From Selaginella tamariscina (lineage: Eukaryota; Streptophyta; Lycopodiopsida; Selaginellales; Selaginellaceae): DNA of 64,000 nucleotides. The notes beneath the pieces are model-generated. The model was given only the letters and a program-made list of their open reading frames with translations. It was not told where the DNA came from and searched no databases. The position numbers were made by a program, and so were the translations under genes. Positions 29,331-64,000 of the stretch are shown here, in pieces (positions within the stretch are counted from its first letter, which is position 1; every line of letters starts with the position of its first letter). The stretch spans positions 174,501 through 238,500 of the forward strand of contig PUQB01000127.1 in assembly GCA_003024785.1 (NCBI GenBank), given 5' to 3'.

Positions 29331-29373
29331 CATGGCCCGAGGACGTGTCAATGAATAAGTCCTAGGCATCTAG

Positions 29374-29754: not shown

Positions 29755-29785
<31 letters not shown>

Positions 29786-38810: not shown

Positions 38811-38955
38811 TTGCTCCTCCTATTCTCCTTCTTTCGCTCCTACAATACAGGATCATCTCTAGTATCTTCATCAGGTACAGGATAATCTTTGAGTTCATCT
38901 TCAACAGCACAGGAATGGTACAAGCATCATGCTGATGCTCATCATCAGCCGACTT

Positions 38956-40200
38956 GCATACAAGGTTGGTGATCTCGTGTGGCTTTTCATCGGCATATTT
39001 GCACCAACAAGTATTCTTCTAAGTTGGATTTTCAATGCTTGGGTCCTTACAGGATTGCGGCTGAGGTCAATCCTGTAGCTTTCCGACTAGAGCTACCATC
39101 TTTTATGAAATTTCATCCTATGTTTTACACTTCTTTGTTAAAACCGTATCATCCTTTTTTTCTTCCTTGTCGTGCTTCTTTTCCTCCCCCTCTTGTGGTC
39201 ATTAACGATGAACCTGAGTACGAAGTTGCAGCCATTCTGGATTCTCGATTCATTGCCGTCAACTTCAATACTTGGTAAATTGGAAAGGTTATTTGCTTAC
39301 TGATCGCACTTGGGAACCTACATCCAATCTACTCTATGCTTCTTCTAAGGTTGCTGCCTTCCATTTGCATACAAGGTTGGTGATCTCGTGTGGCTTCTTC
39401 ATCGGCATATTTGCACCAACAAGTATTCTTCTAAGTTGGATTTTCAATGCTTGGGTCCTTACAGGATTGCGGCTGAGGTCAAATCCTGTAGCTTTCCGAC
39501 TAGAGCTACCATCTTTTATGAAATTTCATCCTATGTTTACACTTCTTTGTTAAAACCGTATCATCCTTTTTTTCTTCCTTGTCGTGCTTCTTTTCCTCCC
39601 CCTCTTGTGGTCATTAACGATGAACCTGAGTACGAATTCAGCCATTCTGGATTCTCGTATTCATCGCCGTCAACTTCAAATACTTGGTAAATTGGAAAGT
39701 TATTTGCTTACTGATCGCACTTGGGAACCTACATCCAATCTCTCTAATGCTTCTTCTAAGGTTGCTGCTTCCATTTGCATACAAGGTTGGTGATCTCGTG
39801 TGGCTTCTTCATCGGCATATTTGCACCAACAAGTATTCTTCTAAGTTGGATTTTCAATGCTTGGGTCCTTACAGGATTGCGGCTGAGGTCAATCCTGTAG
39901 CTTTCCGACTAGAGCTACCATCTTTTATGAAATTTCATCCTATGTTTTACACCTCTTTGTTAAAACCGTATCATCCTTTTTTTCTTCCTTGTCGTGCTTC
40001 TTTTCCTCCCCTCTTGTGGTCATTAACGATGAACCTGAGTACAAAGTTGCAGCCATTTTGGATTCTCGTATTCATCGCCGTCAACTTTAATACTTGGTAA
40101 ATTGGAAAGGTTATTTGCTTACTGATCGCACTTGGGAACCTACATCCAATCTACTCTATGCTTCTTCTAAGGTTGCTGCCTTCCATCGGCGTTATCTTGT
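38956..40200 (+). repeat. tandem triplication of integrase tail plus chromodomain, about 410-bp unit
   Basis: GCATACAAGGTTGGTGATCT recurs at 38956, 39367 and 39777 (periods 411 and 410). Each unit carries the integrase C-terminal fold (LDFQCLGPYRIAAEVNPVAF, LELPSFMKFHPMFYTSLL) and a chromodomain (INDEPEYEVAAILDSR, then YLVNWKGYLLTDRTWEP). Units differ by small indels that put them in different frames. Only the third continues into RRYLVKPG and the end of pol. Chromodomains are thought to steer integration through histone binding. Confidence 0.88.
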
Positions 40201-40615: not shown

Positions 40616-40696
40616 AATTATTATCAAATAATTAAGTTGATAAGTGTATTAGTATCATAGAATATTCTTATTATTTCGGTAGTATAAAATATTCTT

Positions 40697-42600
40697 TTTT
40701 ATGATGTTAAAACTAATTTAATGAACACTAGGTATGGTTAGTTAAAGATTAGTTTAATAATCAATTATTAATTATTTATTTAGCACTAATTATTAGCTAA
40801 TTATTTAATTAGAATGAAATTATGTGCTAATTATTAATTTATTTTATATTATCATTTTGACTTGTCATGTTCATGTTAGTTGAAAGGTGTTACATATATG
40901 CACACACACTATTATCTATGTATCTTTATATTGTGATTCGAATGCAATATTGTCCATTAACACTAAATGTATGACATGCTTAATTATGTGCTAAAGAAAT
41001 AAAAGTTCTCTTTAGTATTAGAAAACAATAAAATACACACATCAAATTATTTATATATTAATTCTTAATTAAATATTAAATAAAAAAATACAACATTTCA
41101 AAATATAATTTAATATATAGATATTATTATGAATATTTTAAAAGATTATTTATAAATAAAATAAAGATTTATTATTTAATTTTAAAAGCTCCTTTAATAA
41201 TTTTTAAAATTATTATTTTATATAAACATTCAAAATGAATAGAATTACAATAATTATTAATTAAATATTAATAAAATTTAAACTCCAATTAAAATAAGTA
41301 AAATGTAAATAATATCATATTTTATATTAAATATAATTTAATAGTGTATTTATGAAGGTTATAAGATATAACAAGTTATACACAAATAAATAAAGCAAAA
41401 CACTTATTTATTTACAAAAAGGAGTTAAACCATCAAACTATGGTTGGACAAAACCAAAGCACTTGGGATGGCACAAAGAACCACGTGCCCACCCTTCAGG
41501 CTTCTTCTTCACAATCTCTAAACTCCATTCACGCGTCCCCAAATTGTACACAATCATAGATGTTCTAGCTCGTTTCCTGTCGTGTCTTCCATCAAAAACC
41601 TAATAACAAAAATATATAATGTTAACTATGAGAGTTTAATATATCTAATTTTACCTGTATAAAGTCTTCATGCCTACAACAAACGGTGAACTCTTCAGTT
41701 ATGCAATACCGACCTCTTCCAAATGCTTTAACCCACATACTCTCCTCAGGCTTACTTACAAACTGGAACTCCTGTCCTTGTATCAGCCAAATTCCTATTC
41801 CTATCCACTGCCCCTCAAAAAAGCTGACTATATAGAACTTTCCTTCCCAATGCACCAACGAAAGTACACCATCCAACTTGACATTCTCAAACTTGTGTAG
41901 CATCACAGCCCACTCCATGCCATTCTTTACACTATAACGTGCAAATAACTCCCATAAAAGTCGTTCTTGAGTGCATATGTTTTACCGTCTTCTGCAACAA
42001 TTGCACAAGCAAATGGTCCCCTATCATGGTTTTCAGGCTTCACTAACCAGTCTTTATCTTTAGACTCATACACTAGTAGTGACTCATACACTAGTAGTGA
42101 CCTTTCCGAATACCCAAAATAGGCATAGATAAAGACCTGATAGTGACCACTATCAATGTCTGAAATAGTAGCAAAGCTAATAAATCTTACCCACTTGGGC
42201 AAAGGAGGCAGGTCCTTCCAATTACTTGTCATGGATTACCCACGGCAAATATGTAATGACTCCGTTCTATAAGAGCTAGACCTGAATTTGTGCAAGACCA
42301 TACCTTCGTGCAATCTAAGCATTTGATTCGAAACCATTTAGATAAGGAGCTATTATATAGAATGACATGATTATCTTCGTCTTCAGTGGTACGACGTGGG
42401 ACATTATGGTACTTTTCCCAAGACTTAACTTGTGCAGAGAGAGCTAGCACACACGTAGTTACATCACAATATGACCTCTTGAATTCAATGGAATCTACTA
42501 AGGTTTTCAAAGACTTGCACACCGACCGAGCACATAACAAACTTGGGAAAGGGAGTTTGAATAGGATGACTTCTTGAATAACGTTTGGTAAAGACAGAAG
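40697..42600 (-). repeat. left arm of large inverted duplication (F-box locus copy 1)
   Basis: Matches, inverted, 57094-58313 (for 40697-42128) and 43268-43736 (for about 42125-42590). Shared landmarks include TGAACACTAGGTATGGTTAG, GACTTGTCATGTTCATGTTAG, and the F-box coding region. Outside 40697 and 58313 similarity stops. Arms are separated by about 670 bp plus the inserted element in the other arm. Confidence 0.85.
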
Positions 42601-43267: not shown

Positions 43268-43736
43268 CAAATAACCAAACGTTATTCAAGAAGTCATCCT
43301 ATTCAAACTCCCTTTCCCAAGTTTGTTATGTGCTCGGTCGGTGTGCAAGGCTTTGAAAACCTTAGTAGATTCCATTGAATTCAAGAGGTCATATTGTGAT
43401 GTAACTACGTGTGTGCTAACTCTCTCTACACAAGTTAAGTCTTGGAAAAAGTACCATAATGTCCCATGTCGTACCACTGAAGAACAAAGATAATCATGTC
43501 ATTCTATATAATAGCTCATCTAAATGGTTTCGAATCACATGCTTAGATTGCACGAAGTATGGTCTTGCACAAATTCAAGTCTAGCTCTTATAGAATGGAG
43601 TCATTACATATTTGCCGTGGGTAATCCCATGACAAGCAATTGGAAGGACCTGCCTCCTTTGCCCAAGTGGGTAAGATTTATTAGCTTTGCTACTATTTCA
43701 GACATCGATAGTGGTCACTATCAGGTCTTTATCTAT
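43268..43736 (+). pseudogene. F-box gene copy 2, 5' part, cut by the 13.4-kb element
   Basis: Plus-strand copy of the F-box gene: NVIQEVILFKLPFPSLLCAR, SVCKALKTLVDSIEFKRSYC, then a frameshift near 43485 and WKDLPPLPKWVRFISFATIS. It lacks the ATG and first about 20 residues of copy 1. At 42235-equivalent it keeps the C lost in copy 1. It breaks at the CTAT at 43733-43736 and resumes at 57094. Confidence 0.82.
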
Positions 43737-43763
43737 ATGCACGTTGTAACTAAAGTGGGCATG
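43737..43763 (+). repeat. left terminal inverted repeat
   Basis: 27 bp beginning ATGCACGTTGTAACTAAA and ending GGGCATG. Differs from the reverse complement of the right end at three positions (6, 19, 23). Directly preceded by the CTAT target duplication. Confidence 0.85.
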
Positions 43764-44268
43764 ATACGTGAAAATGGGAATATAAAATAAATTACTAATT
43801 AATACTTAAGTTTTAATTATTAATTAATCATTTAATTAATATGTAATTAAGCCTTAAATATTAATTAATTAATTAATTAATTCAATAACCTTACTTAGTA
43901 AGGAATATTCCTAAAATATCTTAGAATATTCATATTATTCTAAAAATAGTTTACAATAATGAAGAAATACTATCAAACATAATTACAAATGAAATCATTT
44001 TCTTATCAACATGTTAATTTATTTATAAATACTTTCTTCCTAACCATACAGAGAAATCTCCTCATTTTGTCTAAATCATCACTCTCCGGATTAATCAAAT
44101 CATTTTGGTCAATATCTTGATGTTGTTGCCCACCAAACTCTCACGAATGCAATTGGGAGTTGCCATCCTTGTTAATACATAAGATGTAATAAGACCAGGT
44201 CTGCATAAAGGCTCATCTAAAATGACGTTCCTTAAGAATAATATTATAAAGCGCCCGGTTGCTATCCT
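43764..44268. other. left subterminal region of the element
   Basis: AT-rich with TTAATTAATTAATTAATTAA-type runs near 43860-43880 and repeated AGAATATTC words. No gene. No copies of the GGCGGG palindrome occur here. Confidence 0.5.
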
Positions 44269-45300
44269 TCATTTTATAAAATTCAAATCACGAGAAAGAA
44301 AAGCTTCAGGAAATGTATGATACGGTGGATACTGCTCACAAAAATTTTCGAGATTCTTCTTTCTGAGGCACGTATCCAAGTAGTTCACTAGCTCATCCAT
44401 GATATCGGTATCAGAATATGGATCGAAAGTGATTGGATGAATACAAGCAATGTTTTGGTTGAGCATAGCCTTCTGAGGAGAGTCGTCTACTACTAAGATA
44501 TGTGCGTTCTTCATTATCCTTAAGCGACTGATCTCCCCATGAGTCCCAATTATTCTTTCATTCTTGAAGAAGTATGGCTTGCTTTCCTTTCTTATATTGT
44601 GAAATTCGAGAGGTTTATAACATATTCGCTGGTCAAAAATCCAATCTTTACGAATCACCTCTTCTGCAACACTACAATGTTTCTTAAGCAAATTCAACAG
44701 CGGTGTTAAGTTATGAATCTGCATGCATGACCAAATCCCCACAAGCGCACCCATCTCCTTAAGCTTTTGAAAGAGACGATCCAACCCTGGACGAAAAATA
44801 ATATCATATCGAAATTTACCATGACAAGGAATGAAATCTCCTTGTTTGATTTCTTTTTTCCTATCCTCGGGCCTTTGTCGATGAAGCAGAACACCATTGA
44901 CATCCAACAACACAATATGGCCATGAGTAACATGAGATAGCGTTGCCTCTTGAATACTTTGCAAATCACTTGTTTGCTCCCTTTCACATTTATCCGTTGC
45001 CACTATCTCGTTGCCTATCCCTTCATCATTTAATTGTACATCATCCTTACAAGATTCAGATATTGCATGCGCTGAAGAAATTGATTTCGGAACTGAAGCC
45101 AATAAAAATGATGATGAAAAACTGAAGTGGCCCCCATGGTAACGATGTTTTGAGCTGCATTATTATCCATTTCCTGCATGAACTCTGTCATTCTGACATG
45201 TGGCACAAGAAATTGTCGCCAAACCCCTCTCTTACCTCATGCCAATGCTGAAAATCCATGTTCTCAATTGTTTCATTACATCTGCAAAATGATAATTAGC
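44269..45300 (-). CDS. FCP1/NIF-like phosphatase (HAD superfamily), cargo gene
   Basis: FCP1/SCP-type phosphatases remove phosphate from serines, for example in the RNA polymerase II tail. The 277-residue open stretch (44269-45102) has HAD motif I as VLLDVNGVLL (D67, N69), the plant variant in which the second Asp is Asn; FRPGLDRLFQKLKEMGA; motif II region GIWSCMQIHN (S125); a Lys in ESKPYF; and motif III HILVVDDSPQKAMLN (D206-D207). The open frame starts at a TTG, not ATG. Upstream minus-strand sequence (to about 45300) has exon-like pieces CNETIENMDFQHW and MQEMDNNAAQNIVTMG with GT-AG borders, so the true start is probably there. The HAD core itself is intact. Because motif I has N for the general acid, activity is uncertain, but this is normal in the plant subfamily. 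It is downstream of, and co-oriented with, the ParB-like gene. Probably a host gene captured as cargo. Confidence 0.78.
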
Positions 45301-45558
45301 TGACCTTAAAATTATCAAGGTATATTATTTACCTTGTTAATGTGTGACCCATGTTTGAACTAAAAGCTTCATTAATCCTTGAGAATTTATTTTCTGTACA
45401 AATATAAACGAAATATACAAAAATGCCTTATGTTACACTCATTTACAACTATTCGTCACTCTAACAATTCATTAACAATTCTTCTTCGCTATTACCTTCT
45501 GAGTGAGGCGAAGAAGGTCTAAGCCGCTTGTGAGATGGTTCAAGATCTTCTGCATCTT

Positions 45559-48500
45559 CTATTGATGTTTCCATGGGTAATGGAGTGTGCAATGTTCTGT
45601 ACTCCTCGAGATAACTTCCGGTCTAATATCTGATTGAAGTTCGTCCTCAGACTCCGACATTGAACCAGATTCGTCTTCAGAGCTATCGCACTTATCTGGA
45701 GGGAACTTTCTCAAATACTCCTTTATGGATTCGTTGGGGTAGTCAGTTGAGAACCTATCTATCCACTTGTTCAGGTCCTCAACCATGGTCTTATCCTTTT
45801 CAACGGCAAATACACATGTATGCCGAAGGTAACACTCCTTCAAGACGGACCCCCTAGTGCAGTAGTCAAAAACCCACGCATCACTGTGAGGACCCCTGAT
45901 CAAGTTGACGATGCTCCGTGCCGCTTGACTTGTGATGTTTGGATAACGTGCCGAATACGTCACTCTATCGGTGTATCGGATGGAGGTTCAGGGCCGTTGG
46001 AGTGCAAACAGATGCCTGGCCAGTCATTTGGAAGTTTGAAACTGTTTGGCGCATTCCTAACAACCAAGTGAACAACCGAATCAATGCACTTCGGATCAGC
46101 ATCATTCATATAAAATCCTGTCCAACGATGTTTATTCCTCTTGGCAAAGGAAAGGCAAAGGTATCGGTGACATGAGCAAGAATCAAGAAATAAATACCTG
46201 AAAACGTAGATATCAGTCAAGAGTGCAAGTATGAATTCAATAATAAATACCTTCTTTGTACATGCTTGCACGGCTAAGTTTCTCCACCAAATCCTCTAGT
46301 GTCCTGTCTGTCGAAGGATTTTTTGACACCCGCCGATCCATCACGAACAATTGAAACGGTTTCCTACAAGCAGTGATGGTACCCCATAAAGTCTCCGAAT
46401 CCAACAACAAACATCTGTAGGGCTTGTCGTGATTCGTAGCATCCTCCTTTATAAGGTTCAACTCGGTTCTCCGCTGCTGAAGGACTGCCATAAGAGAAGG
46501 CGTCATCGCAATGTTCTCCTTTTGGCGTTGGCGTGCAATAGATTCTTGCCCAGATCTTCCGATTGATTCACCCATTCGACAAGCATATCATCGTTTGTCA
46601 CATGCAAATATTTGCTGACCTCTTCGTATGTTGAAGCCGAAATCCAACCCAGTTTGTGGCAGTGTATTCCCAACCACTCCTTGAAGTGCCTGACCGTCTT
46701 CAACTCCATTGCCTTGAGATGAAAAGGAGAGGTGGGGCTGCTGTTGTTAATCTGTAATTTGCCATCAATCACCAAATCAGCCAAGACTTCCATCTCCTCC
46801 ATCGTTGTTCCATTTAAAGGCTTCAACCATGTGAGCTTGAAATCGTTGTCTACATCCTTTATAGATTGAACAGACTTAGCCTTCGGCGTCTTACTGGGTT
46901 TCTTTGCAGACTTCTCTGAGGGCTCCACTTCACTTGTCTGCTTCTTCTTCAGTGTTCCTTTTGCAAAGGATTCCATAATCCCCAACCATTTGCAAAGATC
47001 CTATCCTCGGGACAAGAAATCAACATCATCAAAAAGGATGTTTCCTTCCCGCCCACCTGGGCAAAATCAACTGCTACAATTTCTTCAACTCTCTGAGAAA
47101 AAGACAGATTAATATACCGGCGAGATAAATCCCGCCCAAACAATTTGCTTACCCGGTAGTCCGCAGATTGTGTATTCCCTGCGGTAGCTCTTTGTGGTCG
47201 CTGAAGAGATTCCCACACGGCTCGCGTGTGTTTGAACTTCTCCCATATTTTGCTGTTGTAGTGGTTGGTGTCTGCAGCGTCCCATTCCGCCGATAACTTA
47301 TGGTACTGCTCGATTGTGAGATTCGGCTTCGCTAAAAACGCCGATCTTTTCGTCAGCTTCTCACGGGTATGCTCGGAAAGTTTTGTTGCCATCGTTCCTT
47401 TGTTGTGTTCGTCGAGAAGTCGTTGGGCTGCCGTTATTGTGTGCTGGCCACTAATGATGTAGTACTTAACTGATTTTCTATTCTCCGTCTGAACCTTCCT
47501 CATTTGTTCCGGTGTTGTGATCCACACTTTGTCAGCGCCTTTGTTCTCTTAGTATGCGCACAAAACAGCATTATGTGGAACGGTGTAAGAATTGTCGTCC
47601 TTCATCTTCTCCATGAGCTCAGCTACACGTTCCTGATTGAGTGGCCTGTAATTGAAGTTTGGGTTGACGCTGCAATACTTAACCCTACACTGGTAAATCC
47701 TATCATCCAACATCATTTCCTTGTGGCTTATTGCAGCATGGGACGCCACAGGTGCAGCTGACAAAGACTAATGATTTTTCTACGATCCGAATCAACATGT
47801 GTGATCCCCGATTGATGCTGTTCTAAGTTCTCGGCACACTCTTCCAGCTCCCGAAATTTGCTAAGCAAATTGAACGTGATCTGTAAAGAACCTGAGACCA
47901 AGCCACCCTCTCAATCTCCTTTATGATGTCGCTGTGTTCTTCTTCAATGTGAAGAGGGACGATTGCTCCACTTGCTGATTTTCTGTATTGTGAAGCAATA
48001 TCTCCTGACAATACACCTACTCGATGAGTCTGAAGATCTTCGAAGTAGACATCCAGATGGATCCCCTCCATAGATGGGCTTTCGTTGAGTTGAAGAAGAA
48101 CTCCAAGGTCAACATCATTAGTGAACACGTGAACGTCATTATCCACAAGTCGACAAAACCACCCGAAATTAATGTTGTAACTGGCGACCTCTGGATCCGA
48201 GAACGTGACATTGGATGGAACAAGGCATATGTGTCGAGCATCGTTCAATCTGGGTTCACAGCATGCTTTCGGATGCTTGACTAGCACACCCACTTTCCAT
48301 TGTTTTGCTTGTCCATGCGATGTGACAGAGGTTAGTTTGACAGCAACCATGGTTGTTCCAATGCGCTTCCCGTTTAGTTTGAAATATGGCCAAGTTGATT
48401 CCAGAATCCCCCTGCCCATCTCTTCTCCTGCTCTCGTCTTTAATGTCACCTCAATTCCACATCTGAATACAAAAATGATTAGTTCAAGTATCCGAGTATA

Positions 48501-48585
48501 ACAGATTTTATTTTAATTCTTACCCAGAATTTGACGACGACTCCATACTAATGACTCGATCTCCTTGTTTAATTAAATCGTCCTT
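45559..48585 (-). pseudogene. ParB-like N-domain plus methyltransferase-like protein, multi-exon, damaged
   Basis: Order on the minus strand: exon 48585-48524 (LIKQGDRVISMESSS), intron 48523-48463, then IEVTLKTRAGEEMGRGILES and a beta-rich region to about 47880; a leucine-rich coiled stretch (LLSKFRELEECAENLEQH); the ParB-like domain (47764-47400: FNYRPLNQERVAELMEKMKD, VPHNAVLCAY, stop TAA at 47549-47551, KYYIISGQHTITAAQRLLDE); a helical part with RAVWESLQRPQRA; a basic linker (KKPSKTPKAKS); and a C-terminal Rossmann motif (ITSQAARSIVNLIRG, WVFDYCTRGSVLKE, then CVFAVEKDK) followed by an acidic tail. The spacing resembles N4/N6 DNA methyltransferases, but no DPPY motif is visible (FVMDRRVS lies near the expected place). 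There is one clear in-frame stop and at least three frame changes. Short introns occur (46200-46253, 48463-48523). ParB-methyltransferase fusions are typical of phages and bacterial elements. Domain calls are from motifs only. Confidence 0.55.
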
Positions 48586-48881
48586 CTGCAAAATAATACA
48601 CTATGAATACAAATCATATAAAAAGCACACACACTTGTATAAACCCGAATATACAAAAATAATACACAGAGAGAAGTAGACGGAATTAACTGTCCAAAGC
48701 TCACCTTTGTGCTAGTGCAAAAGAAAGATAACATTTCGTTTTAGAACCACCACAAATGTGAGCTCTGGACAGTTTTACATAGTTTCCTAGCTTTGAAATA
48801 TTATGATAAGATGATAAAAGTAAATAAAATGAGATATGCAACTTATATATACTAATACACATATATATTCACATGGAAGGT
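48586..48881. other. spacer between ParB-like gene and left array
   Basis: Short AT-rich stretch. AACTGTCCAAAGCTCACCTTTG (48689 on) and CACAAATGTGAGCTCTGGACAG (48751 on) are imperfect inverted copies about 60 bp apart, a possible hairpin. No gene. Confidence 0.45.
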
Positions 48882-49815
48882 GCGGCGGGATTAATCTCGC
48901 CACCCCTTCAATGCCTCCTGAAAGAGTGGGCGGGATTAATCTCGCCACCTTTCTGGAGGCCTTGAACGGGAGTGCGGAATTAATCTTGCCACCCTTCTCG
49001 GTCTCAGAGAGAACTGGGCAGGATTTATTTGGCACACCCCTTCAGTGACTCCAGAAAGGAGGCGGGATTAATCTCGCCCACCATGTAAGGGATGGTTAAA
49101 TGAATTTCCCACCCTTCCCAGTTCTCTCCATTGGTATGTTGTAAACCTTCTACGTCTCAGACAGAAACGTTTGGGATTGGTCCGACTCACCAATGGAGAA
49201 AAAAGGGAAGGGTGGCGGGATTCATTCCTCCAACAGGCATTGAAGGCTCGGCGGGATTAATCCCGCCGCCCAGGGCCTTCACTCGGTCCCTATGCGGCGG
49301 GATTAATCCCGCCGGACGCCAATTCCCTGCGAAATCGGGCGGGATTAATCCCGCCGCCTAGGCCCTTTAGGCAGGCTTTGGCGCGGGATTAATGATTAAT
49401 CCGCCCGATTCCGCGCAGGGCAGCGGGATTAATCCCGCCGCCCGGCCCTTCACTCGGGCCCTAGGCGGCGGGATTAATCCCGCTGGACGCCAATGCCCTG
49501 CGCGAATCGGCGGGATTAATCCTGCCGCCTAGGCCTTCAGGCAGGCCAATGGCGGGGATAAATCCCGCCGATTCCGCGCAGGGCATGCGTACGCGCGGGA
49601 TTAATCCCGGGACGCCAATGCCCTGTGCGGAATCCGGCGGGATTAATCCCGCCGCCTAGGCCCTTCAGGCAGGCCAATGGCATCCCGCCCAATTCCGCGC
49701 AGGGCATGCGTAGCGCGGGATTAATCCCGCCGCTCATGAGGGTAACGAATGAGCAGCGGGATTAATCCCGCCGCCGAGTGGCTAATTATATAGCGGTGGG
49801 ATTAATCCCGCCGCT
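48882..49815. repeat. left palindrome array (about 19 units of GGCGGGATTAATCCCGCC)
   Basis: An 18-bp perfect palindrome and near-copies, for example at 48929, 49061, 49250, 49296, 49338, 49636, 49758 and 49796, spaced about 40-50 bp. Between units a second motif recurs: CCAATGCCCTGCGCG, TTCCGCGCAGGGCAT and CTAGGCCCTTCAGGCAGGCC, giving a higher-order repeat of about 85-90 bp in 49280-49740. The first units (to 49080) carry ATTAATCTCGCC variants. CpG-rich in otherwise AT-rich DNA. Lies just upstream of the first recognised exon of the ParB-like gene. Confidence 0.9.
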
Positions 49816-50151
49816 ACAACACACACACAAGATATATATATGTATATTGTGTGTAGGAGAGTGCGTGCATGTGCCAGAGATAGTTCAAATCAGATAAAAT
49901 TATACAGATATACACACACACTATATGTAATGTATGTTATACGCGTGTGTGTGCGAGAGATAGATAAATAAATAAAATTATACAGATCTGGTACACATAA
50001 TATATGTATGTATACATAGGTATATATATATTATATATATATATGTGTATATGTATATCGTGTGTATGCGTGTGTGAAACAAATAAAATCATACAGATAC
50101 ACACACACACACATATATAGAGATAAATAAATAGAATATATATATACAATA

Positions 50152-50196
<45 letters not shown>

Positions 50197-50232
50197 CAAG
50201 AGATAGAGATCTATAGAGAGAGAGAGAGAGAG

Positions 50233-50269
<37 letters not shown>

Positions 50270-50450
50270 GTGTGTGTATATGTATACGAGTGTGCGTGTG
50301 TGTGCGAGAGATAGAGATCTAAATTATATTATTAAGATACACACACATATAAATATATATGTGAATAAAAATAAATAAATATCACAAATAAACGCAGAGG
50401 AGTGTGCGTGTGTGAGAGAGAGAGAGAGATCTCACCTGTGTGAAAGATAG
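49816..50450. repeat. microsatellite-rich spacer ((TA)n, (TG)n, (GA)n)
   Basis: Alternating (AC)n, (TA)n and (GA)n runs, notably 50150-50196 (TA then TG), 50215-50235 (GA), 50236-50268 (TA) and 50415-50430 (GA). No coding potential. Such tracts are unstable and may contain assembly error. Confidence 0.8.
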
Positions 50451-50590
50451 AAGGAGATTTCGCCGCCGCCGCCGCCGCCGCCTTACAAACCCTAGGAATA
50501 TACCAAAACCCTAAAAGGAATAAAATATATATTAACCCTAATCAAATATTCATTTTAAGAATATACTTAAACCCTAAAAAGAATAAACTA
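50440..50590 (-). promoter_or_regulatory. possible promoter/5' leader with telo-boxes and (CGG)n
   Basis: On the minus strand: AACCCTA/AAACCCTA-related boxes in both orientations (50488-50580), a (GGC)n run (50462-50482), CTCCTTCTATCTTTCACACAG, then GTGAGATCTC, a plausible splice donor at about 50438. This looks like a plant 5' untranslated exon followed by an intron that would contain the left palindrome array and splice to the ParB-like gene. Inferred only from base pattern. Confidence 0.35.
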
Positions 50591-52592
50591 TAGATTCGCC
50601 TTAAACGAATATTCTTTCATTATATTATCAGCGTGTGCGTGTGCATGGTGGTATCACATACACCCCAAGAATAAATACATGCAAGGGTTTAACACGTGAC
50701 TGAGAGTGTTAAAGTTTCACATGCAGCGATACATATATACACACATAGTATTATACACATAAACATACATACATATTAGTACATATTAAATATTAGAGAG
50801 ATACAGTAGATCGTTATGGTGTGTATGTAGAGAAGAAGAGTGACAATACATATTATGGATCATGCATGATGTGTATGTTTGAAAAAAAGAGAGACAATAC
50901 ATATTTACATGGATCATGCATGGTGTGTATGTATGAGAGAAGAGTGAGAGTGTTAACAAATTAAATTCATACACATTGGATATATTAGTACACACATATA
51001 CATACACACGTGTATACACACAGACATACATACATATTACATGTGTAAATTCAATGTAGGGTTTAGGGTTTAGGGTTAGGATGGATCATGCATGGTGTTT
51101 ATGTATGAGAGGAGTGAGTGTTATCACAAATATACATTACATATTACATAATATTGTAACATCAGTACATATTATGGATTATGCATGGTGTGTATGTATG
51201 AGAGAAGGGATTATGCATGGTGACACTGTGTATGTATGAGAGAAGCGATAGAGTGTTAACAAATGAAAATCGTACACATTATATATATTATATTAGTACA
51301 CATACACACGTGTATACACACAGACATACATATATATTAATATGTGTAAATTCAATGTGTTACATACACACACACTGAGTACATATAGATCATACATGTG
51401 TTGAACATGATGTTTTTCAATAAAGAAGCAACATATAATTTCTCAAGTTTGGTTTAGGGCAATGTGTATGTGTGTGCATATGTGTCTCTCTAAGTGCTTC
51501 TAATGCGTGTGCACATGTATATATAAATTTATGATTGTGTTTAATATATAATATGTGCAAAACAAACATCGAATAATTAAGAAAATAATATTAATATACA
51601 CACTATGAACATATTTTAAATTATACATAATAATATATGATTTTATTTAATATATAGCCATATATAGTTAATAATATATATTAATTTAATATTGATAATA
51701 AGGTTTAAACACTAGAATAATTCTTGAAATAATAACAAATTAAATTGAGAAAATCCCATTAATATATACAAATGTAGAATAATTACTGAGATAATTAATA
51801 ATAAGACTAATTTAATTATGATAATCATGTTTAATATTGGAATATTCTTTGAATATTAAGAAAATAACAAAGAATATCCCATTAATAGTAGGAAATGTAA
51901 ATTAATTACTCGAGTAATTAAGAAAATAATAATAATAAACAGACTATGAATATATTTTAAATGATACATAATATATATCAATTTATTTATTGTATTAGTG
52001 TATATATATATATAATATAAACTTAATAATATATACTTGAATATTAAGAATGTAGAATAATTACAAAATTTCGTATTATTAAACAGCTTGAAGCATTTGA
52101 ATGACATTAAATGTAATTTTAAAACACTCATTGGAATTGAAGAGTATATATGTCAGACTGTCGGTTATTTGTTTCAACTCACTTAAATTTTCTTTTCTGT
52201 TATTTCAAAAATTTTGAATTTCTGATATAAGTATTATCAGTCTGACATGTAAATTTGAAAATACATTTAATTTTCCCACTCAAATTCAGATCTGGTTCTT
52301 CTTCCGGTAAAGGTTTCTTCATTTTCACTCTTTAGATTTTCTTTTTTCTTCTTAGTGATCAGCTCAGGAGCGACATTAAATTGGGTGCGCTATTGTTTAT
52401 AGAAAAGCACGGCGCCTTCAGTGCTGTTTATAAGTATTATAAACAAATTTAGATATATTTATAAAGATTCCACTCTCTTACATTCTCTTAAATTTTAGAA
52501 TTTTGGGATTTAGGAATGCATTAGGATTACAATATATTCTGTTAGGGATTTATCCCGTTTAAATATACTTTTAATTTAGTATTCTCGGTTAG
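50591..52592. other. AT-rich centre of the element, no gene
   Basis: Several near-copies of a unit with GGATCATGCATGGTGTGTATG, ATGAGAGAAG and ATACACACGTGTATACACAC (50860-51330). GGGTTTAGGGTTTAGGGTTA at 51059-51078 is a plant telomere-type repeat. 51500-52250 is almost pure AT. No supported gene. Confidence 0.6.
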
Positions 52593-53318
52593 CCGGGGGC
52601 GGCGGGATTAATCCGGCCATTTTTTTTTCGCCTCTTTGAAGAGGTGGCGGGATTAATCCCGCCACCATCTCTTTCATAGCTATGGCAGAATTAGTTCGGG
52701 CAATGCTTTTCCGCCTCTTACAAAGAGCGGCAAAATTAATCCTGCCGATAACTCTTTCAATTTGATAATGATTTACTTGAATTTATTAGAGAGAGTTGGT
52801 CGGCGGGATTAATCTCGCCAACCATTTTAGGAGGCAGAGAAGGGGTGGCAGGATTAATCTCGCCACTACTTCCCTGTTTAAAATATTTGTGGGCAGAATT
52901 CATCCCGAATCTCTTTAAAATCATAGTTTTCGGAGAGAGTTGTGGGCGGGATTAATGCCGCCGCTTATTCCCCGTCGTCAGAGTTGTGGGCGGGATTAAT
53001 CCCGCTACCTATTCTCCATCATCAGTGTTGTGGGCGGGAATTAATCCCGCCCCCTCTTCCTCGTCGGAGGAATTTGCGGCGGGATTAATCCCGCCGACTC
53101 TCACAGACGAGGAAGATCCGGCGGCGGGATTAATCCCGCCGCTACTTCCTCGTCTGAGGGAGCCCGCGGCGGGATTAATCCCGCCGCTCTCTCCAACGGG
53201 TAGAGTCGGCGGCGGGATTAATTCCGCCGACTCTCTCCGATGGGGTGGAGTCGGCGGCAAGATTAATCTGCCGACTCACTCTGAAGGGGTAGAGTCTACG
53301 GCGGGATTAATCCCACCT
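52593..53318. repeat. right palindrome array (about 15 units of GGCGGGATTAATCCCGCC)
   Basis: The same 18-bp palindrome as in 48882-49815, e.g. near 52645, 52989, 53076, 53121, 53167 and 53299, with variants (GGCAGAATTCATCCCG, GGGATTAATGCCGCC). Spacing about 42-48 bp in the right half. Linkers differ from the left array (CTCTTCCTCGTCGGAGG, CTCTCTCC), so the palindrome is conserved while linkers are not. It ends about 150 bp before the first codons of the DUF7869-like gene. Confidence 0.9.
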
Positions 53319-53464
53319 ATCAGTTATATTAATAAAGCATGAGATATTATTTTTATATATAATTATGTATTATTGCACATGCATATTATTAAGCAACTGC
53401 AGTTATGATTTCTTACAAATATTGTATAAACAGATATCATAAATAACACAATTATTTATGTGTA

Positions 53465-56400
53465 GGACAATATGTATAATATTGGAGATAAAGTAATGTC
53501 TTCTTCGGAACAACGAGATAGTTGGCACTGGAACTGTGGAAGTTCGAGATGATAATGCATCATGTCACAATATTGCCCAAGGATCTTGTGTGTACGTATG
53601 GGTGAACACCATTTTCAAGCATGTTGAGGTTCTTGGAATGGAATTTGAGGAGGGTTCTCTTGTATTGTGGAATTTGGATGAAGTCAAGGCTGACACAGAA
53701 TATACAGAGTCACAAACAAACAGTAGCACGAGTTTTCCAGATGATGGCTTGCCTGCTGTGATGGATGAGGTGATTCTCTTTCTTCATGAAATTGAGGTTG
53801 GGAGAGGCATCATCACAGCTATAAATCCAATGGAAGCAGTGTCAGAAGAGAAACTAGGGTTCGACTTCGTGGGTGTAGTTGTGACAGAGGTTTCACCTAA
53901 TGGCACTTTGTATCCTGGATCCCTCGTGAGGTGGCGAACATCTGAATTAAGACGGCAAGATGGTTCAACATATTCTGGGTTAGATATCAATAATAACAAC
54001 CCGGAAGAACAACCCATATTTGAAGAGGTTCCTTGCATTGGTCCTATTGTAAGAAAAAGGCGATTCATGGGTTGCAGATCTTCCCCTACATGTTTCAGCA
54101 AGAGGATGAAGATGGATCCACATCTTCCGAAAGTGTTATGAGCATTTCCACGATTGACTGCTGCAAGAAGAAGTGTTGTCAGATGGCAGACCGGAATGAA
54201 ATTACCCAATGTAGACATGTCTTTCATACGCTCACCCAAAAGCAAAGGCATGAGTTTGTATATGCTGCACTAACTGGGTGTATTGATGGGAATGGCTTCG
54301 GACACAGGTTATCAGAGTACATCCATGGTATTTAATAAGGTGGCCATCTGCTTCAAAGCTTGGTACAGTATATATGGGATTCCAAAGACCACGTTCTACC
54401 GTCGGAGGGATGAGTGGTTAGATGGAGTGCGAACCTCAGTACATGGGAACACTGGCTTGGTCAAAACCCGCTCTCACATTATGGCAGCCATAGAGATACT
54501 CAAGGCTTTTGTGGAAGCAAATGCAGACAGGATGCCTCACAAATGCCGAACCACAAATGCAGGGGTCAGGGAAAATCTCAAGGTTTTGCCTTCGATCTAC
54601 ACTCAATTGAAGCTGTGTGAACATGTGAACAAGTGCTCATCTTGATGGGGCTGCAAGCAATCTGCACTGGTACCTTTAAACATATGGAATACTCATTTTA
54701 AGGATGTGGAGATTGCAAAACACTCTAGCTTTTCCAAGTGTGACACTTGTACATCATTGAAGGCTGCAGAGGCTTGTGCAAAAACCTTGGTGGAGATCTG
54801 CCATTCAAAAGAAGATGGAGGCCCACATGATTGCACAACAAACTTGCCGGTCTCAGTACTATGCACACCGCATGCTTTCTGTGTCACACCCATCAGAGTA
54901 CCTGTGCTTGATCCATGACAAGATGGATCATTCAAAGACCAGCATTCCAAAGCTCGTTGCAACACCAAAGTGCCTTGGAAATGTCATGAAACTTCCGATT
55001 TCATTGACAGGTGTGCTAACACATGGACACGGTTGTGAGTCATATGGACACTTTTCACTTCCACATTGGTCTAGCGACTCCAATTTCACTATTGGGTCGT
55101 TGGTCATGTGTTTCAGAAACCTTGAAGCCCACTCACAGACAAGTCCTATCGGTGATCTCAAAGTGAAGAAACAACACCTTCAACCTTTACATAATGCTCT
55201 CATGAACACGTCTGCACTTAAGGCTACTTGGAAATATGAGAGGCATTGTCAGCAACCTGCACAAAAAACAGATGGCCCTGTTGAGAGTTCAGGTTCAGTG
55301 GAGGGATCTAGCTCAAATAGTGTACATGTGTCCTCAACATCAAATAAGCTTCCTCGTCATTTGCTTTTACAGATGGATAATTGTGCAGGCGAGAACAAAA
55401 ATAGGTAAATCATTTTACTTAAGGGTTTCTCAAGCTCATACTTACTTTTATTTTCTAGATATGTGCTAGCATACTTGTCAATGCTTGTTGCCAAAGGTGT
55501 GTTTGAAACAATCACGCTCAGTTTTCTTATGGTTGGTCACACTCATGAAGATATTGATGCGTTCTTCAACAAGGTCTCCAACTCTACAAAAAGGACAAGT
55601 GCACTTACCTTACCGCATATGATGAATCTTTTTGAAAATTGCATCTCCAAAAAAAGTTGTGCTTTGCTTGTGACTGAGGTGCCAGACTTCAAAAAAATTT
55701 CTCAAGGAGTATATAAAAGAGGGGAGTGATTCTTTAGTTGGTCACCTTGTGCCGCTACAATTCTTTTTCTCCATACGAGATGGTATATCTATTATGCAGT
55801 ACAAGTTATGACCATCAGAGCAGGAGTGGTTACCGAAAGAGGGGTTAATGCTCTTCAAAAGTGGAGAGAATGGAAAGCCACTTCTTCCAGAAGGACAACC
55901 AGACCCTATTCCATTGAGTGCCCAGTTCAAAGAACAAGAGGTTATTATTGATGGCATCAAAAAATATGTGGCATGGGTTCAAAAATCGATGCCAACTAAT
56001 TCTGATAAGGCAACTGGTTACTCAGAATTATATAAGCATGTGGTTGACTATTGGGAGACTGTTGTTCGAGAGTTGGAAGGGCCTACTGTCACAAGTACAG
56101 AATTGCAACACCCTTTTTGGCCTAAATCAAGGTGGCGAGAGGAGATTGAAATGACATCATTGAGCACAGACGACATAGAAGCCAGTAGTGATGTGGAAGT
56201 GCAAACCCCACACTTTGTTGGACAAAGGAACCAAAAACCTAAAGCATACTTTGATTGCTGCCAGGATCTTCAAAAAACTAATGATGGTTCTCATTACTCC
56301 AGATGCGTCATATAATCAACCTATTTGGATGGGTCAAATTATCGACACACCTGAAGTAATCACAAAAAATAGTATTGTTAAGGTTGCATGGTTCAAACCA

Positions 56401-56589
56401 CAAAAAAGGCGACACGAGAAGGAGAGCGAAAGATATAATGGATGCCTAGAGAAAACATGGTCTCCCAATCAAAAAGACCCAGCATGTTTTATAAATGTTA
56501 AATCCATTCGATATGGGTGGATGTCAAGAAGCGTTGATAAAGTCACGATTAATAAAACTGCAAGGGAATGTATGTTTTCTGAAGCTTAA
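53465..56589 (+). pseudogene. DUF7869-like protein, candidate transposase, damaged
   Basis: N-terminus: YNIGDKVMSSS, then EIVGTGTVEVRDDNASCHNI and GSCVYVWVNTIFKHVEVLG, a small beta domain; a second similar unit has LHEIEVGRGIITAINPME and FDFVGVVVTEVSPNG. Then a Cys-rich stretch (DCCKKKCCQ), an HTH-like part (ICFKAWYSIYGIPKTTFYRR) with the conserved VHGNTG, KCDTCTSLK, RSQYYAHRMLSVSHPSEY, KLPISLTGVLTHG, and the core LLLQMDNCAGENKNR-YVLAYL and FLMVGHTHEDIDAFFNKVS. In this family the Asp in QMDNC and the GHTHEDID motif resemble an RNase H-type (DDE-like) active site. A 54-bp intron (55405-55458) interrupts the NR/Y codons. C-terminus: YNQPIWMGQIIDTPE and KVAWFKPQ, a chromatin-reader-like end. Breaks: TGA at 54643, TGA near 55806, and frame changes near 54110, 54300, 54790, 55725 and 56280. 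Function as transposase is inferred from the family and context. Confidence 0.65.
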
Positions 56590-57066
56590 AGCAATTACAA
56601 AATTATAAAATATCATATATTTAATATTCATAATTATTATAAACTCTTTAATAATAGTACCAAATTGTTTACTTAACTATATAAATTTAAAAAATGATAT
56701 GGAAGATTGACTATATTATTATAGGATTTTATATATATATTATTACTACTACAATTTTTTAATTAATAATATTATATTTAAATATTAATATTTTAATAAC
56801 AACATCAATATTTATATAATGTACCTCTTATGCTCTTCCTTAATTGTTATATTAGGCAATATATTATATTTAATACCTTTTACTTTTATAATGTTATTAA
56901 TTTTTGTTCAATGAATGCTATAATTTATTAAAGGGTAGAATACAAAATAGAATATTTTAAAGAATATTCTATTTTCAAACATATATTCTAAAGAATATTC
57001 CTTTAATATTAGAAAATGCTAATTAAATAGTTAAAATTGCTAATTATTAGGAAATGGGACTATAGC
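56590..57066. other. right subterminal region of the element
   Basis: AT-rich with AGAATATTC repeats (56955-57005), similar in style to the left subterminal region but not a long inverted copy. No gene. Confidence 0.55.
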
Positions 57067-57093
57067 CATGTCCATTTTAGTTACAACTTGCAT
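57067..57093 (-). repeat. right terminal inverted repeat
   Basis: 27 bp that read, in reverse complement, ATGCAAGTTGTAACTAAA then ATGGACATG. Followed by CTAT (57094-57097), the target duplication, and then F-box copy 2. Confidence 0.85.
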
Positions 57094-57600
57094 CTATGCC
57101 TATTTTGGGTATTCGGAAAGGTCACTACTAGTGTACGAGTCACTACTAGTGTATGAGTCTAAAGATAAAGACTGGTTAGTGAAGCCTGAAAACCATGATA
57201 GGGGACCATTTGCTTGTGTAGTTGTTGCAGAAGACGGTAAAACATATGCACTCAAAAATGACTTTTATGGGAGTTATTTTGCACACTATAGTGTAAAGAA
57301 TGGCATGGAGTGGGTTGTGATGCTACACAAGTTTGAGAATGTCAAGTTGGATGGTGTACTTTCGTTGATGCATTGGGAAGGAAAGTTTTATATAGTCAGC
57401 TTTTTCGAGGAGAATTAGATATATTAAACTCTTATAGTTAACATTATATATTTTTGAACACCTATGATTGTGTACAATTTGGGGAAGCGTGAAGGGAGCT
57501 TAGAGATTGTGAAGAAGAAGCCTGAAGGGTGGGCACATGGTTCTTTGTGCCATCCCAAGTGCTTTGGTTTTGTCCATAGTTTGATGGTTTAACTCCTTTT
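57094..57600 (+). pseudogene. F-box gene copy 2, 3' part
   Basis: Continues copy 2 after the element: AYFGYSERSLLVYESLLVYE, WLVKPENHDRGPFACVVVAE, GKTYALKNDFYG, HKFENVKLDGVLSLMHWEGK and FYIVSFFEEN, stop. Relative to copy 1 it has lost the rest of exon 1 (the segment from GQWIGIG to HEDFIQ) by deletion at about 57413, but retains exon 2 remnants (57470-57590: MIVYNLGKREG, KPEGWAHGSLCHPKCFGF). Confidence 0.8.
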
Positions 57601-58313
57601 TGTAAATAAATAAGTGTTTTGCTTTATTTGTGTATAACTTGTTATATCTTATAACCTTCATAAATACACTATTAAATTATATTTAATACAAAATATGATA
57701 TTATTTACATTTTACTTATTTTAATTGGAGTTTAAATTTTATTAATATTTAATTAATAATTATTGTAATTCTATTCATTTTGAATGTTTATATAAAATAA
57801 TAATTTTAAAAATTATTAAAGAAGCTTTTAAAATTAAATAATAAATCTTTATTTTATTTATAAATAATCTTTTAAAATCTATATTCATAATAATATTTAT
57901 ATATTAAATTATATTTTGAAATGTTGTATTTATTTATTTAATATTTAATTAAGAATTAATATATAAATATCTTGATATGTGTATTTTATTATTTTCTAAT
58001 ACTAAAGAGAACTTTTATTTCTTTAGCACATAATTAAGCATGTCATACATTTAGTGTTAATGGACAATATTGCATTCGAATCACAATATAAAGATACATA
58101 AATAATAGTGTGTGTGTGCATATATGTAACACCTTCCAACTAACATGAACATGACAAGTCAAAATGATAATATAAAATTATTAATTATTTATTTAGCACT
58201 AATTATTAGTTAATTATTTGATTAATATGTAATTATGTGCTAATTATTAATTGATTATTAAACTAATCTTTAACTAACCATACCTAGTGTTCATTAAACT
58301 AGTTTTAACATCA
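57094..58313 (+). repeat. right arm of the inverted duplication
   Basis: Inverted match of 40697-42128, extending well beyond the gene into AT-rich flank (for example GACTTGTCATTTTGA-type sequence near 58155 and ACCATACCTAGTGTTCATTAA at 58277). Ends at about 58313 (AACATCATAAA). Confidence 0.85.
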
Positions 58314-59479
58314 TAAATAAATTCATTAGAAAAATGTATATTTATTTTGTGTACATGAATTTATGATAAAGATACGGAAAAAATTAGATTGTAATATCAA
58401 AGTGAGGACTTATATAGGTTATATAAGTTTCTAATTTCAACATGTGATTGTAAAGACTTTAACAAACATAACAAAAGTTCTCAACCACGTAAGAACCTTA
58501 TATTTGTTTTTTATTGACATTATGAATTGCCAATGAAAGATATTCGAACTTTGAACCCATGCTTTCAGTGAATATTATTATTGAAAAGATATTTCAAATA
58601 AGAAACAAATATTGATTTATTAATCATAATTTTAAAAGTTTATTTTGGTTTGTTATTTATAGTTTAAAAGCCCAATCCTAATTTTTTTCCTTTAATTTTT
58701 GAAACCAAATATGTTTCTCTTTAAATGAAATATTTTAAATTTTCCATATATTGAGAGAGAATATGCTAGTTGGGAATTCCTAGCCTTAAAGAGGAATACA
58801 CTCATATCAAAACATGCATACATTAATTTTTAATTAAATAAAATAAAATAAAAACAACAATTCAAAATATAATAATTTAAATTAATTATTAATATGTTCT
58901 GTATTAAATATAATTTAGTTTATAGATATTATTATGAATCTAAAATATTAAAATATTATATATAAATAAAATAAAGATTTACTATTTAATTCTAAAATTT
59001 CCTTTAATAATTATTAAAATTATTATATTATATAAACATTCAAATGCATAGAATTACAATAATTATTAATTAAATAATAAAATATTAATTGTTAGTTAAA
59101 TATTAATAAAATATAGTACCTTTATTATTGTGGATAGAATCTCGCATATCAAGCTATTTAAAGTCAGTAAATATGTGTATATAGAAATCTTTCTATCTCA
59201 CATACACATACACACATTGAGTTTACAAGATCTCACGGATTTGCATATGTTGACAAGATACACACACAATATATATGTAACATACATATGTATAAACATG
59301 CATACAAACAACTTATCTTATTGTTATCGACAAACATTATATACATATATAATTATTGTCAACATGCATCTAGGAGGTACCGCATGTGTGTGTTTGTATA
59401 TATATACCTTTGGTCATCTAAGTATTCTAAATATAATCCCATTGCATAATGTGCATGTCGTGCACATCTTTTAACAACT
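58314..59479. other. AT-rich DNA with a third diverged flank copy
   Basis: 58830-59115 resembles 41085-41285 in the same orientation as the left arm (ATAGATATTATTATGAAT, AAATAAAATAAAGATTTA, TAGAATTACAATAATTATTA), so part of the F-box flank exists a third time. The rest is AT-rich. An open frame at 59130-59474 is low-complexity and not supported as a gene. Confidence 0.55.
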
Positions 59480-60415: not shown

Positions 60416-60831
60416 AGGGTCTAGCGCTAGGTAACCCACTATATAAGCAGGAAGGCTGGTAGTGAGTCGGGGTCTTTTTGGGAGTCAAGTCTGCATCTTG
60501 TATCTTGCTCCTCTGTCGGAGATAGTTTGTACTCAGATAGGCATTATAATATATCCATACTCCTACTTACCTTACAAGCGGGGACTCCCCACTTGTCCCA
60601 CTCCTAAGCTAAGCAACGCTCTCTGCCAAACCACCAAGGTAGAACTCCCGTACCTGTACACGGACCTTCATGGCGTTTGGGTAGAGGCCATCTAACACCT
60701 TCCAGTACTTCCGAGGTAAGGTCGACTTGCCAGTTCAAACCCCCAGAGTTGGACGCTCTCCACAGCGTCATGGTGACCACTGAGGCTTCCTGAGAAGCAC
60801 CACATCTGGCCTGTGGAGTCCCTGACGATCA
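60416..60831 (+). repeat. partial 5' LTR of copy I-4
   Basis: Matches the R-U5 half of the I-3 LTR: GGGTCTAGCGCTAGGTAACC, ACTATATAAGCAGGAAGGCT (TATA), GAGGTAAGGTCGACTTGCCA and CAGCGTCATGGTGACCACTG, ending CCTGACGATCA. The U3 half is missing, replaced by the inverted fragment on its left. Confidence 0.65.
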
Positions 60832-62329
60832 TTTGTGGTGACCACAGAGGGATAAATAGTACACATGGATGGAGTTCACTGTAGCAAGCAGAGTTGCGGC
60901 CCGAAGGAGAGCCGGGATTAACTCGTTCGAACAAATAGAGATCGACGAGCAACAGCTGGCCAGGAAGATGCGACGGGCTAGCCGAGGGAGGTTGATGGAA
61001 GGTAGCAAGGCACCTTGGTTGCCGCAATCGGCCCTTGCCTAACCTACCCGAGGGAATGATGTAAATACTGCATGGCAGAATCTCTGAGTAGCGGTAGACC
61101 TGGCACACCAGTGGTAAAGGTGGTTGCACACTGCTGATGACAAAGAAGGATATGAAGAAACTGTAGCACGTTCGATGTCAGTCTAGGTACAGCAGCATGC
61201 AAGTATGAGCAGCACCTGGACGGGTGACTTCACCTGACAATAACCTACGATGCAGAATGGGATGGATGGCAGGACGATGGAAGCTCTCCACCTCTCGATG
61301 TAGGCGAAAGTGACAGCCACAATGAGCCCCCACACCAAAGAGCAGAACCCGTGTTCGACGAGTACCCCCGAAGGAGGAAACCCCGCATAGGACAACCCCA
61401 GGAAAGGGTAGGCCTGCAACAGAGGCAGGAATCTCGAGGGGCGAAAGCAACACGGATAATGACGGGGGACGTGAGCTAGAAGTCCAACGTGGCCAATGCC
61501 ACAACGTAGGAAACCTAGGGCCGCCGTCACCCACCAGGGTGAGGCGGGGGCCCGTGGCTGCCCGAAAAGAGGGGAGGAAGAGCCTCATATGGAAGGCCCC
61601 CATAGGGAGGGGCATCGATTGCCAATAAGGCAACCTTTGCACCAAGAGTTTAGCCGATTGGACGATGCAACAAGCCAGGGTGGTTACCAAGATGAGAACC
61701 CAAGACTTTGGAAGGCTGGGTACACATGGGACGACCACCTGCGCAAAGGCGATTGGACATTGACGAGTTAACAGACTGGGAGGAGGTACTAGAAAGAGAG
61801 GCCGCACAGTGGCCACTCTAGACAAGGGACAAGAGGATTTCGTCTAAGGGCAGGAGAGATTCGCCTGAGCAACCAGTATCGCATTGGCCCTACGAGGGAA
61901 ATTTGCCAGGGCACACGGTAGAGCCGCAACCATCACCAGACGAGGGGATATCGTCTTAGGGCAAGGAGGATTTGCCCCATTGATCACAACCGTCTAGACG
62001 GTCGCAGGGGGATTCCGTGCACGGTCCTACAAAACCACTCACTGGATGAGGAAATACTGTCTAGCCGTGGTAAGCTGTGCCACCAGCCGTCAAGTTGGTC
62101 CCACGGAGGGGGCCCCCGAGGGACAGCCGGGAGGAGCCCGTCCTCTCAACGGGAGGGCAGGGCCGCGAGGAAGGAGAAAGGTACCCGTAGAATATCGGGA
62201 TGTGGACTACACCACGTCCGAAGCGGAGGGTCCGGATTGGAGCACTTCTCAGGCGCAACGGGACGCCGTGGGAACCAACCCGATTACCTTACTAGCCCGC
62301 GCACTCAATCAAATGTAGGAGAGCACTGT
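60832..62329 (+). other. family I 5' leader (copy I-4)
   Basis: GC-rich leader collinear with 23188-24600. Repeated motif GAGGGGATATCGTCT / GAGGAAATACTGTCT with GGAGGATTTGCCCC. Minus-strand open frames are shadows of no known domain. Confidence 0.5.
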
Positions 62330-62830
62330 AACAGTGCCCTTACTCGCGTTCCGTGGAGCAAAGGGGGAAGACACAGACTAACACGTATACAAGTTCGAAC
62401 AGGTGTGCGAACTTTGGAGTGTAATCGACAATCACAAGAAGCTGAGTGCATTCACATGTACTTTGGACAAGAAGGCATAGGCTTGGTGGATGTGTTTCCA
62501 CGAGGCAAATGAAGGAGCCTGCTGGGAAAACGCACAGACGTGTTCTTGGATACCTTCCGGGAGGAAAAGAGTGAAGAAGAGGTGATCCACAAGCTAACGG
62601 GCTTGAAACAGAAAGCGGGAGAGTTGGTCGACGAATACACAGTCCACATGTTGGGGTACATTGCTCGGCTAAGAGACGCCCCAGTTGACTTGACCAAGAA
62701 AATGTGGTACCGAAAGGGACTGCGATCAGAGATCCGCAAGTGGATCGGCTTAGATGACGACCGAACGTTCGACAAACTACTCCGATACGCCAAGAAGGCT
62801 GAGAAGCGGGAAGCTGAAAAACGCTAGGAA
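62330..62830 (+). pseudogene. family I gag (copy I-4)
   Basis: 62540-62827 is open: FLDTFREEKSEEEVIHKLTG, LKQKAGELVDEYTVHMLGYI, DLTKKMWYRKGLRSEIRKWI and DDDRTFDKLLRYAKKAEKRE. Upstream pieces (HKKLSAFTCTLDKKA-like, WWMCFHEANEGA) are in other frames. Retrotransposon gag-type capsid. Confidence 0.75.
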
Positions 62831-62989
62831 AGGAAGACATAGGACAAATCGGACACAGAGGGGCAAACGACACCACCTTGGATGAGGAAAACCTCTCTAA
62901 TGATCCAAAGCCGGCCAAAAGGGAGAAACGATCGGGAGCCAAGAGGCACAGGCAGCTGCAGCGGGGGGAAACCCAACACAAAAGGTAGA

Positions 62990-63839: not shown

Positions 63840-64000
63840 ACAACCATAGTGGACTACGTAAACGACGTACCAACCATTCTGGTTCACATGGCGTGTCACA
63901 GAATCAGCAAGGTGATTATAGATGGAGGGTTGGCAGTCAACGTCATGTCAACAGAGCTCCACAGGGAGTTGCGTATGCCAACTCTGAAGCCTACTCCCTC
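63840..64000 (+). pseudogene. family I protease, start (copy I-4)
   Basis: TIVDYVNDVPTILVHMACHR and VIIDGGLAVNVMSTELHREL, with IIDGG as the active-site loop (Asp, Gly, Gly), then LRMPTLKPTPS to the window end. It is more intact than the equivalents in I-2 and I-3, and continues beyond the window. Confidence 0.65.

Follow-up and report, generated by a model that had tools for sequence, protein, structure and literature searches.

A 13.4-kb insertion in Selaginella tamariscina as a copy of a large, multi-gene DNA transposon family with a probable DUF7869 transposase

In a window of 64,000 nucleotides from Selaginella tamariscina (GenBank assembly GCA_003024785.1, contig PUQB01000127.1, positions 174,501 to 238,500), we analyzed an insertion of 13,357 bp (43737-57093), which is very probably a copy of a large autonomous class II DNA transposon family that has a DUF7869 protein with a predicted RNase-H-like core and a DDD-type triad as its transposase. 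The initial annotation, made from the sequence alone, had described inverted ends identical at 24 of 27 positions, CTAT at both borders, and an uninterrupted paralogous site running through 42125-42128, all of which was borne out to the base. When the flanks of the insertion are joined, 758 of 791 positions (96%) are identical to the inverted paralogue, with no gap at the junction. This paralogue belongs to a host gene region that is duplicated in inverted orientation (40695-42589 and 43274-58320, 93-96% identical; the gene is F-box-like by eye), and this duplication predates the insertion of the element. A degenerate form of the 26-bp end, allowing up to 3 mismatches, occurs at 2 sites in the window only and was absent from 100 shuffles. 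The flanks of the window copy alone would also allow a 6-bp repeat, with ATCTAT present on both sides; since other copies show 4-bp duplications, these settle the duplication at 4 bp and the ends as the symmetrical ATGCA...TGCAT. At position 57071, within its right end, the window copy has a T, compared to a C in the other copies shown.

A search of the host assembly (300.7 Mb in 1,391 contigs) with the 464 bp at the left end yielded 40 near-full matches with 97-100% identity, including the window itself, among the 40 of 1,575 candidates that were scored; of these, 39 start at element base 1 and 1 at base 2. The 26-bp end was found at 4,201 genome sites with up to 2 mismatches, compared to 0 for the reversed-pattern control; right-end counts also come from this pattern. 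In addition, 17 pairs of opposite-facing ends lying 9-19 kb apart were counted by hand among approximately 100 places listed. As the initial annotation had anticipated for a genome search with the element end, further copies share the same termini together with 4-bp duplications, and homology between copies does not run past these ends.

For a detailed comparison, 18 copies from the genome were examined together with the window copy (19 in total, not randomly chosen). C443 (gapped), C726, and C391 (gapped) were not counted as two-ended: no right end was found in the stretch examined for C443 and C726, and in C391 a second, truncated left end faces the first one. A 4-bp duplication flanks 10 of the 16 two-ended copies and is exact in 9 of them (window, CTAT; C715, AAAC; C549, AAAT; C450, ACTG; C788, TAAA; C1305, TGTA; C80, ATAA; C84a, ACCA; C36, GATA). 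For C1305, the duplication is formed with the outer of 2 right ends, the inner one giving none. C180 has the duplication AATG on the assumption of a change in its first element base, and when its flanks are joined without that base, their genomic matches share exactly 4 bp. No 4-bp duplication was found in the remaining 6 two-ended copies (C502, C69, C87, C42, C68, and C84b), which may be recombined or misassembled. As a control, left and right flanks were re-paired between copies, which gave 1 match in 240. Furthermore, C80 is a full copy nested in another family member. The insertion lies in the left subterminal part of the latter, as the two flanks of C80 align to element bases 148-246 (100%) and 243-343 (93%), the overlap of which is the duplicated ATAA. 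Thus, with ends common to dispersed copies and duplications of constant length, the element is a terminal-inverted-repeat (class II) DNA transposon. While the assembly is not clean, as 15 copies aligned to the window differ by 401 one-base gaps besides 1,463 substitutions in 97,246 aligned bases, an assembly artefact or a chance inverted repeat has a negligible probability and is refuted by the 4,201 ends against none in the control and by the recurring 4-bp duplications.

Two further observations concern the arrangement of ends. Family ends lie 200-700 bp apart on C1, C25, and C80 (e.g., C80 563731/563980 and C25 192476/193150), perhaps representing more nesting. In C391 with its 2 left ends and in C68 with 2 right ends, like ends face each other, and both copies are gapped; these are hybrids or assembly joins.

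From left to right, the element comprises the left end, an FCP1/NIF-like gene and a multi-exon gene (both on the minus strand), palindrome array A, the center, palindrome array B, the DUF7869 gene on the plus strand, and the right end (Table 1). The DUF7869-like label given initially is confirmed by Pfam, as PF25273 was matched by 2 pieces of the window gene with 52.8 and 84.2 bits (E 5e-14 and 1.1e-23; Pfam cut-off 26 bits). The gene contains a single GT-AG intron directly after "ENKNR", and other copies provide open frames of 699 + 392 codons (C80) and 660 + 392 codons (C84a). In the genome, the frame is open, apart from a single TAA, in 40 of the 41 best-scoring matches, this TAA being intronic in the 2 copies that were read. 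Alignment with PDB structures indicates an integrase/transposase-like, RNase-H-like core for the predicted model of the protein, whose fold matches TnsB, IstA, Mos1, and Hermes, while Foldseek alone returned no significant match for the model. A residue census places conserved acidic residues like a DDD triad, in strands 1 and 4 and in the last helix of the predicted core, and the triad would correspond to D169 and probably D327 and D369 in the numbering of P0001. Because of this predicted core and the triad-like placement of the acidic residues, we take the DUF7869 protein to be the putative transposase of the element, and by predicted structure and residue census it would belong to the DDE/D (RNase-H-like) type. 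With DUF7869 being a domain of unknown function, the base-exact ends, the duplications, the nesting, and the predicted core make this role directly testable.

Homologues of the DUF7869 protein (84 in total) were found in animals, plants, and metagenome sources, the closest one with 49% identity over 86% of query part P0001, and that of the liverwort Riccia sorocarpa, the nearest one bearing a plant name, with 34% identity over 89% of P0025. In precomputed lists, the N-terminal part of the homologues is assigned the domain PF26133. Among viral contigs, 23 stretches matched the search pattern and none encoded a relative, and a structure search against viral proteins gave no match at E 0.001. Within the genome contig collection, 2 of 27 stretches encoded a relative, both located on short contigs from Bacteroidetes genome bins, and on one of these 2 contigs (L001) no convincing element ends were found. 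DUF7869 is not mentioned in the literature searched.

Changes between copies were further counted by codon position (given as 1/2/3), where pooled counts are non-independent, as copies share history. They are biased toward the third position in the transposase gene (exon 1, C1305 versus C84a: 16/8/28; exon 2, pooled: 57/31/83) and in part of the multi-exon gene, for which 2 of 4 tested exon pieces have this excess (ParB-like exon, C549 versus C84a: 8/10/31; middle exon, C80 versus C450: 7/8/20). Other comparisons weigh against such a bias: the last exon of the multi-exon gene has no clear third-position excess (pooled: 33/45/48), and the excess is weak for its N-terminal exon (117/78/137), for the FCP1-like gene (31/29/56), and for DUF7869 exon 1 between C180 and C84a (24/25/32). 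These data also bear on whether DUF7869 could be cargo, with the ends being moved in trans by the transposase of another element, as would fit the shortened copies that lack part of the genes (C788, 9.6 kb; C42, 10.2 kb; C84b, 6.7 kb). We consider this very unlikely, given the transposase-like fold predicted for DUF7869, the one element gene that was modelled, its open frame in nearly all of the best-scoring genomic matches, and the preference for third codon positions among its changes.

In the FCP1-like gene, four copies (C715, C180, C450, and C788) have 0 substitutions but 4-9 gap columns relative to C549 over approximately 1,020 bp. Such near-identical copies suggest recent activity and make the family a candidate for a working assay. 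The presence of several one-base gaps per kb between nearly substitution-free copies resembles an unpolished long-read assembly, and 132 of the 401 one-base gaps lie in runs of 3 or more, which hold 17% of bases. The one-base gaps are read in part as assembly error, and, consequently, the frameshifts of the window copy are not simply attributable to decay.

The palindrome that forms both arrays is 18 bp long and arranged in tandem, often with a spacing of 40-46 bp. Its 16-bp core, allowing up to 2 mismatches, occurs at 26 sites in the window, all within the element and 25 of them in the 2 arrays. Since the palindromes precede both divergent gene sets at this frequent spacing, they are most likely promoter-proximal control sites to which a protein would bind. 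The half site GGCGGGA presumably resembles E2F sites, and the binder may be an element protein instead of host E2F. Across the genome, exact 16-bp cores number 31,192, compared to 0 for the reversed control, and copies contain a mean of 15.3 exact cores (199 in 13 two-ended copies; C42, C68, and C84b left out), corresponding to approximately 2,040 element equivalents, while half of the 4,201 ends gives 2,100. We therefore estimate the family at approximately 2,000 element equivalents of approximately 14 kb each, which amounts to approximately 28 Mb and thus approximately 9% of the assembly, a figure extrapolated from few, non-randomly chosen copies and with partial copies counted as parts. As large DNA transposons are usually rare, approximately 2,000 equivalents of a 14-kb element are unusual.

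This abundance touches on the mode of transposition. We infer cut-and-paste movement, in which the DUF7869 transposase would bind the 26-27-bp ATGCA...TGCAT ends and bring them together, cut the element out, and join its ends to the target at a 4-bp stagger, which would produce the 4-bp duplications. A replicative copy-out, paste-in mechanism, which would account for the large size and the high copy number, is unlikely in our assessment, even though approximately 2,100 pairs' worth of ends are many for a 14-kb element and the predicted fold matches not only Mos1 and Hermes but also TnsB and IstA.

With regard to known superfamilies, the initial annotation had seen a fit to none of hAT, MULE, CACTA, PIF/Harbinger, mariner, or Helitron, and this holds by duplication length and termini. 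Target duplications are 8 bp for hAT, 9-11 bp for MULE, 3 bp for PIF/Harbinger, and TA for Tc1/mariner, all of which disagree with the 4-bp duplications, and the presence of inverted ends and a target duplication argues against Helitrons, which have neither. CACTA (En/Spm) elements have CACTA termini and a 3-bp duplication, unlike the ATGCA...TGCAT ends and the 4-bp duplication found here. A weak likeness to En/Spm was seen in 4 of 56 DUF7869 homologues, which matched TNP1/En-Spm (PF03017) at E <=0.1 (best E 6.6e-4); no such match was reported for the DUF7869 pieces of the window or for the C80/C84a exon tested. TTAA, the target of Sola3, is found in 0 of the 10 duplications of the element family. 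It is also the target of Kolobok and piggyBac, according to PMC9587614; these share a 4-bp duplication and a DDE/D transposase with the element, and the same count argues against them.

That the element is a member of the Sola superfamily, with DUF7869 being the Pfam name for the Sola transposase core, is a serious contender, which we rate at somewhat less than an even chance. Sola was reportedly found in plants, animals, and protists by Bao et al. in 2009, and Sola1-3 resemble the element in their 4-bp duplication and DDE/D-type transposase. In the literature, Sola is described as a DDD/E superfamily (PMC9587614) comprising 3 groups (PMC4455052), and Sola2 in a dictyostelid as having a 4-bp duplication at AWWT targets, with Sola2 elements carrying an extra gene, Fanzor1 (PMC3627910). 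However, AWWT fits only 1 of the 10 duplications (AAAT), TTAA fits none, and the extra genes of the element are FCP1/NIF-like and of a further, unknown family instead of Fanzor1; the comparison with Sola was made by description. At the protein level, the catalytic core of the element is shared by DUF7869 (PF25273) members from liverwort, molluscs, corals, and other sources. The element was not recognized in the literature on Sola, giant, or bryophyte transposons, including the accessible parts of PMC7913693, PMC13182070, and PMC11735767, which is no proof of its being unpublished, as Repbase and most subscription papers were outside this scope.

Of the 2 remaining genes, the FCP1-like one is confirmed in its initial label by Pfam PF03031, and a 340-codon open frame is present in C549 and C450. 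In its phosphatase motif, DVNGV, the second Asp is replaced by N, compared to DxDx(T/V) in canonical FCP1/NIF members; therefore, phosphatase activity of the encoded protein appears doubtful. A genome search for NIF gave 154 matches, part of which were listed (150 of 951 candidates scored). Among the matches listed, 67 resemble the element gene in their score and span, and all but one of these (66) are free of stops; several (C715, C549, C450, C671, C708, and C747) lie approximately 630 bp from a left end of the family, as expected. Thus, the gene belongs to the element family. Other NIF matches in the genome, probably host genes, reach up to 166.9 bits; strong NIF/FCP1-like genes were seen clustered on the single contigs C549 and C711. 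A search for homologues of the FCP1-like protein gave none at E 0.001, with 558 candidates considered.

The multi-exon gene, which has open exons in other copies, had initially been described as ParB/methyltransferase-like. This label received no support: searches of Pfam, NCBIfam, PHROGs, and PDB sequences and a phage tblastn provided no ParB, DNA methyltransferase, or other convincing family match, and 7,990 candidates scored included no relative. The motifs read by hand on which the label is based (ISGQHTITAAQ and VFDYCTRGSVLKECY) are suggestive, and we treat the gene as one of unknown family.

The minus-strand genes and the plus-strand transposase gene diverge from the variable center, with a palindrome array at each side, and the FCP1/NIF-like and multi-exon genes may influence transcription or replication of the host. 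Together, accessory genes and palindrome arrays raise the question of self-control in so large an element. A more far-reaching view, possible but rather unlikely, is that DUF7869 defines an unnamed DDD transposase superfamily across plants, animals, and other eukaryotes, which here would have given rise to a giant multi-gene element accounting for approximately one tenth of the genome, with many copies still intact and its own palindromes (31,192 cores) forming a system for regulation or clustering that the element itself encodes and that one of its accessory proteins reads.

Table 1. Features of the element and of its insertion site in the 64-kb window.
Feature	Position	Strand	Basis or comment
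Interrupted host gene copy, left part (F-box-like by eye)	43274..43736	+	96.4% identical to 42125-42589 inverted
Left target-site duplication CTAT	43733..43736	.	empty site 42125-42128 on other strand
Left terminal inverted repeat	43737..43763	+	24/27 identical with right end
FCP1/NIF-like gene (PF03031)	44269..45159	-	Pfam 45.8 bits, E 6.8e-12 (cut-off 21.8 bits)
Multi-exon gene, family unknown, frameshifted in window copy	45461..48546	-	limits approximate, exons by eye
Palindrome array A, GGCGGGATTAATCCCGCC	48885..49811	.	14 sites of 16-bp core, <=2 mismatches; upstream of minus-strand genes
AT-rich, microsatellite-rich center	49820..52590	.	variable between copies
Palindrome array B, GGCGGGATTAATCCCGCC	52602..53316	.	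11 sites of 16-bp core, <=2 mismatches; upstream of plus-strand transposase gene
DUF7869 gene (putative transposase), core 54761-55729	53497..56589	+	PF25273 Pfam match; several frameshifts in window copy
Right terminal inverted repeat	57067..57093	-	24/27 identical with left end
Right target-site duplication CTAT	57094..57097	.	repeats CTAT of 43733..43736
Interrupted host gene copy, right part (from 57094)	57092..57421	+	57092-57421 95.2% identical to 41802-42130 inverted
Uninterrupted target (empty site) in inverted paralogue	42125..42128	-	sequence comparison

Elsewhere in the window, 3 tandem copies of a unit of approximately 411 bp (38954-40186) are 97-98% identical and contain a reading frame that is retrotransposon-like by eye. 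Furthermore, long repeats with approximately 66-85% identity at 22491-26309, 29365-30068, and 60416-63999, as well as at 4145-6288, are probably older retroelements.
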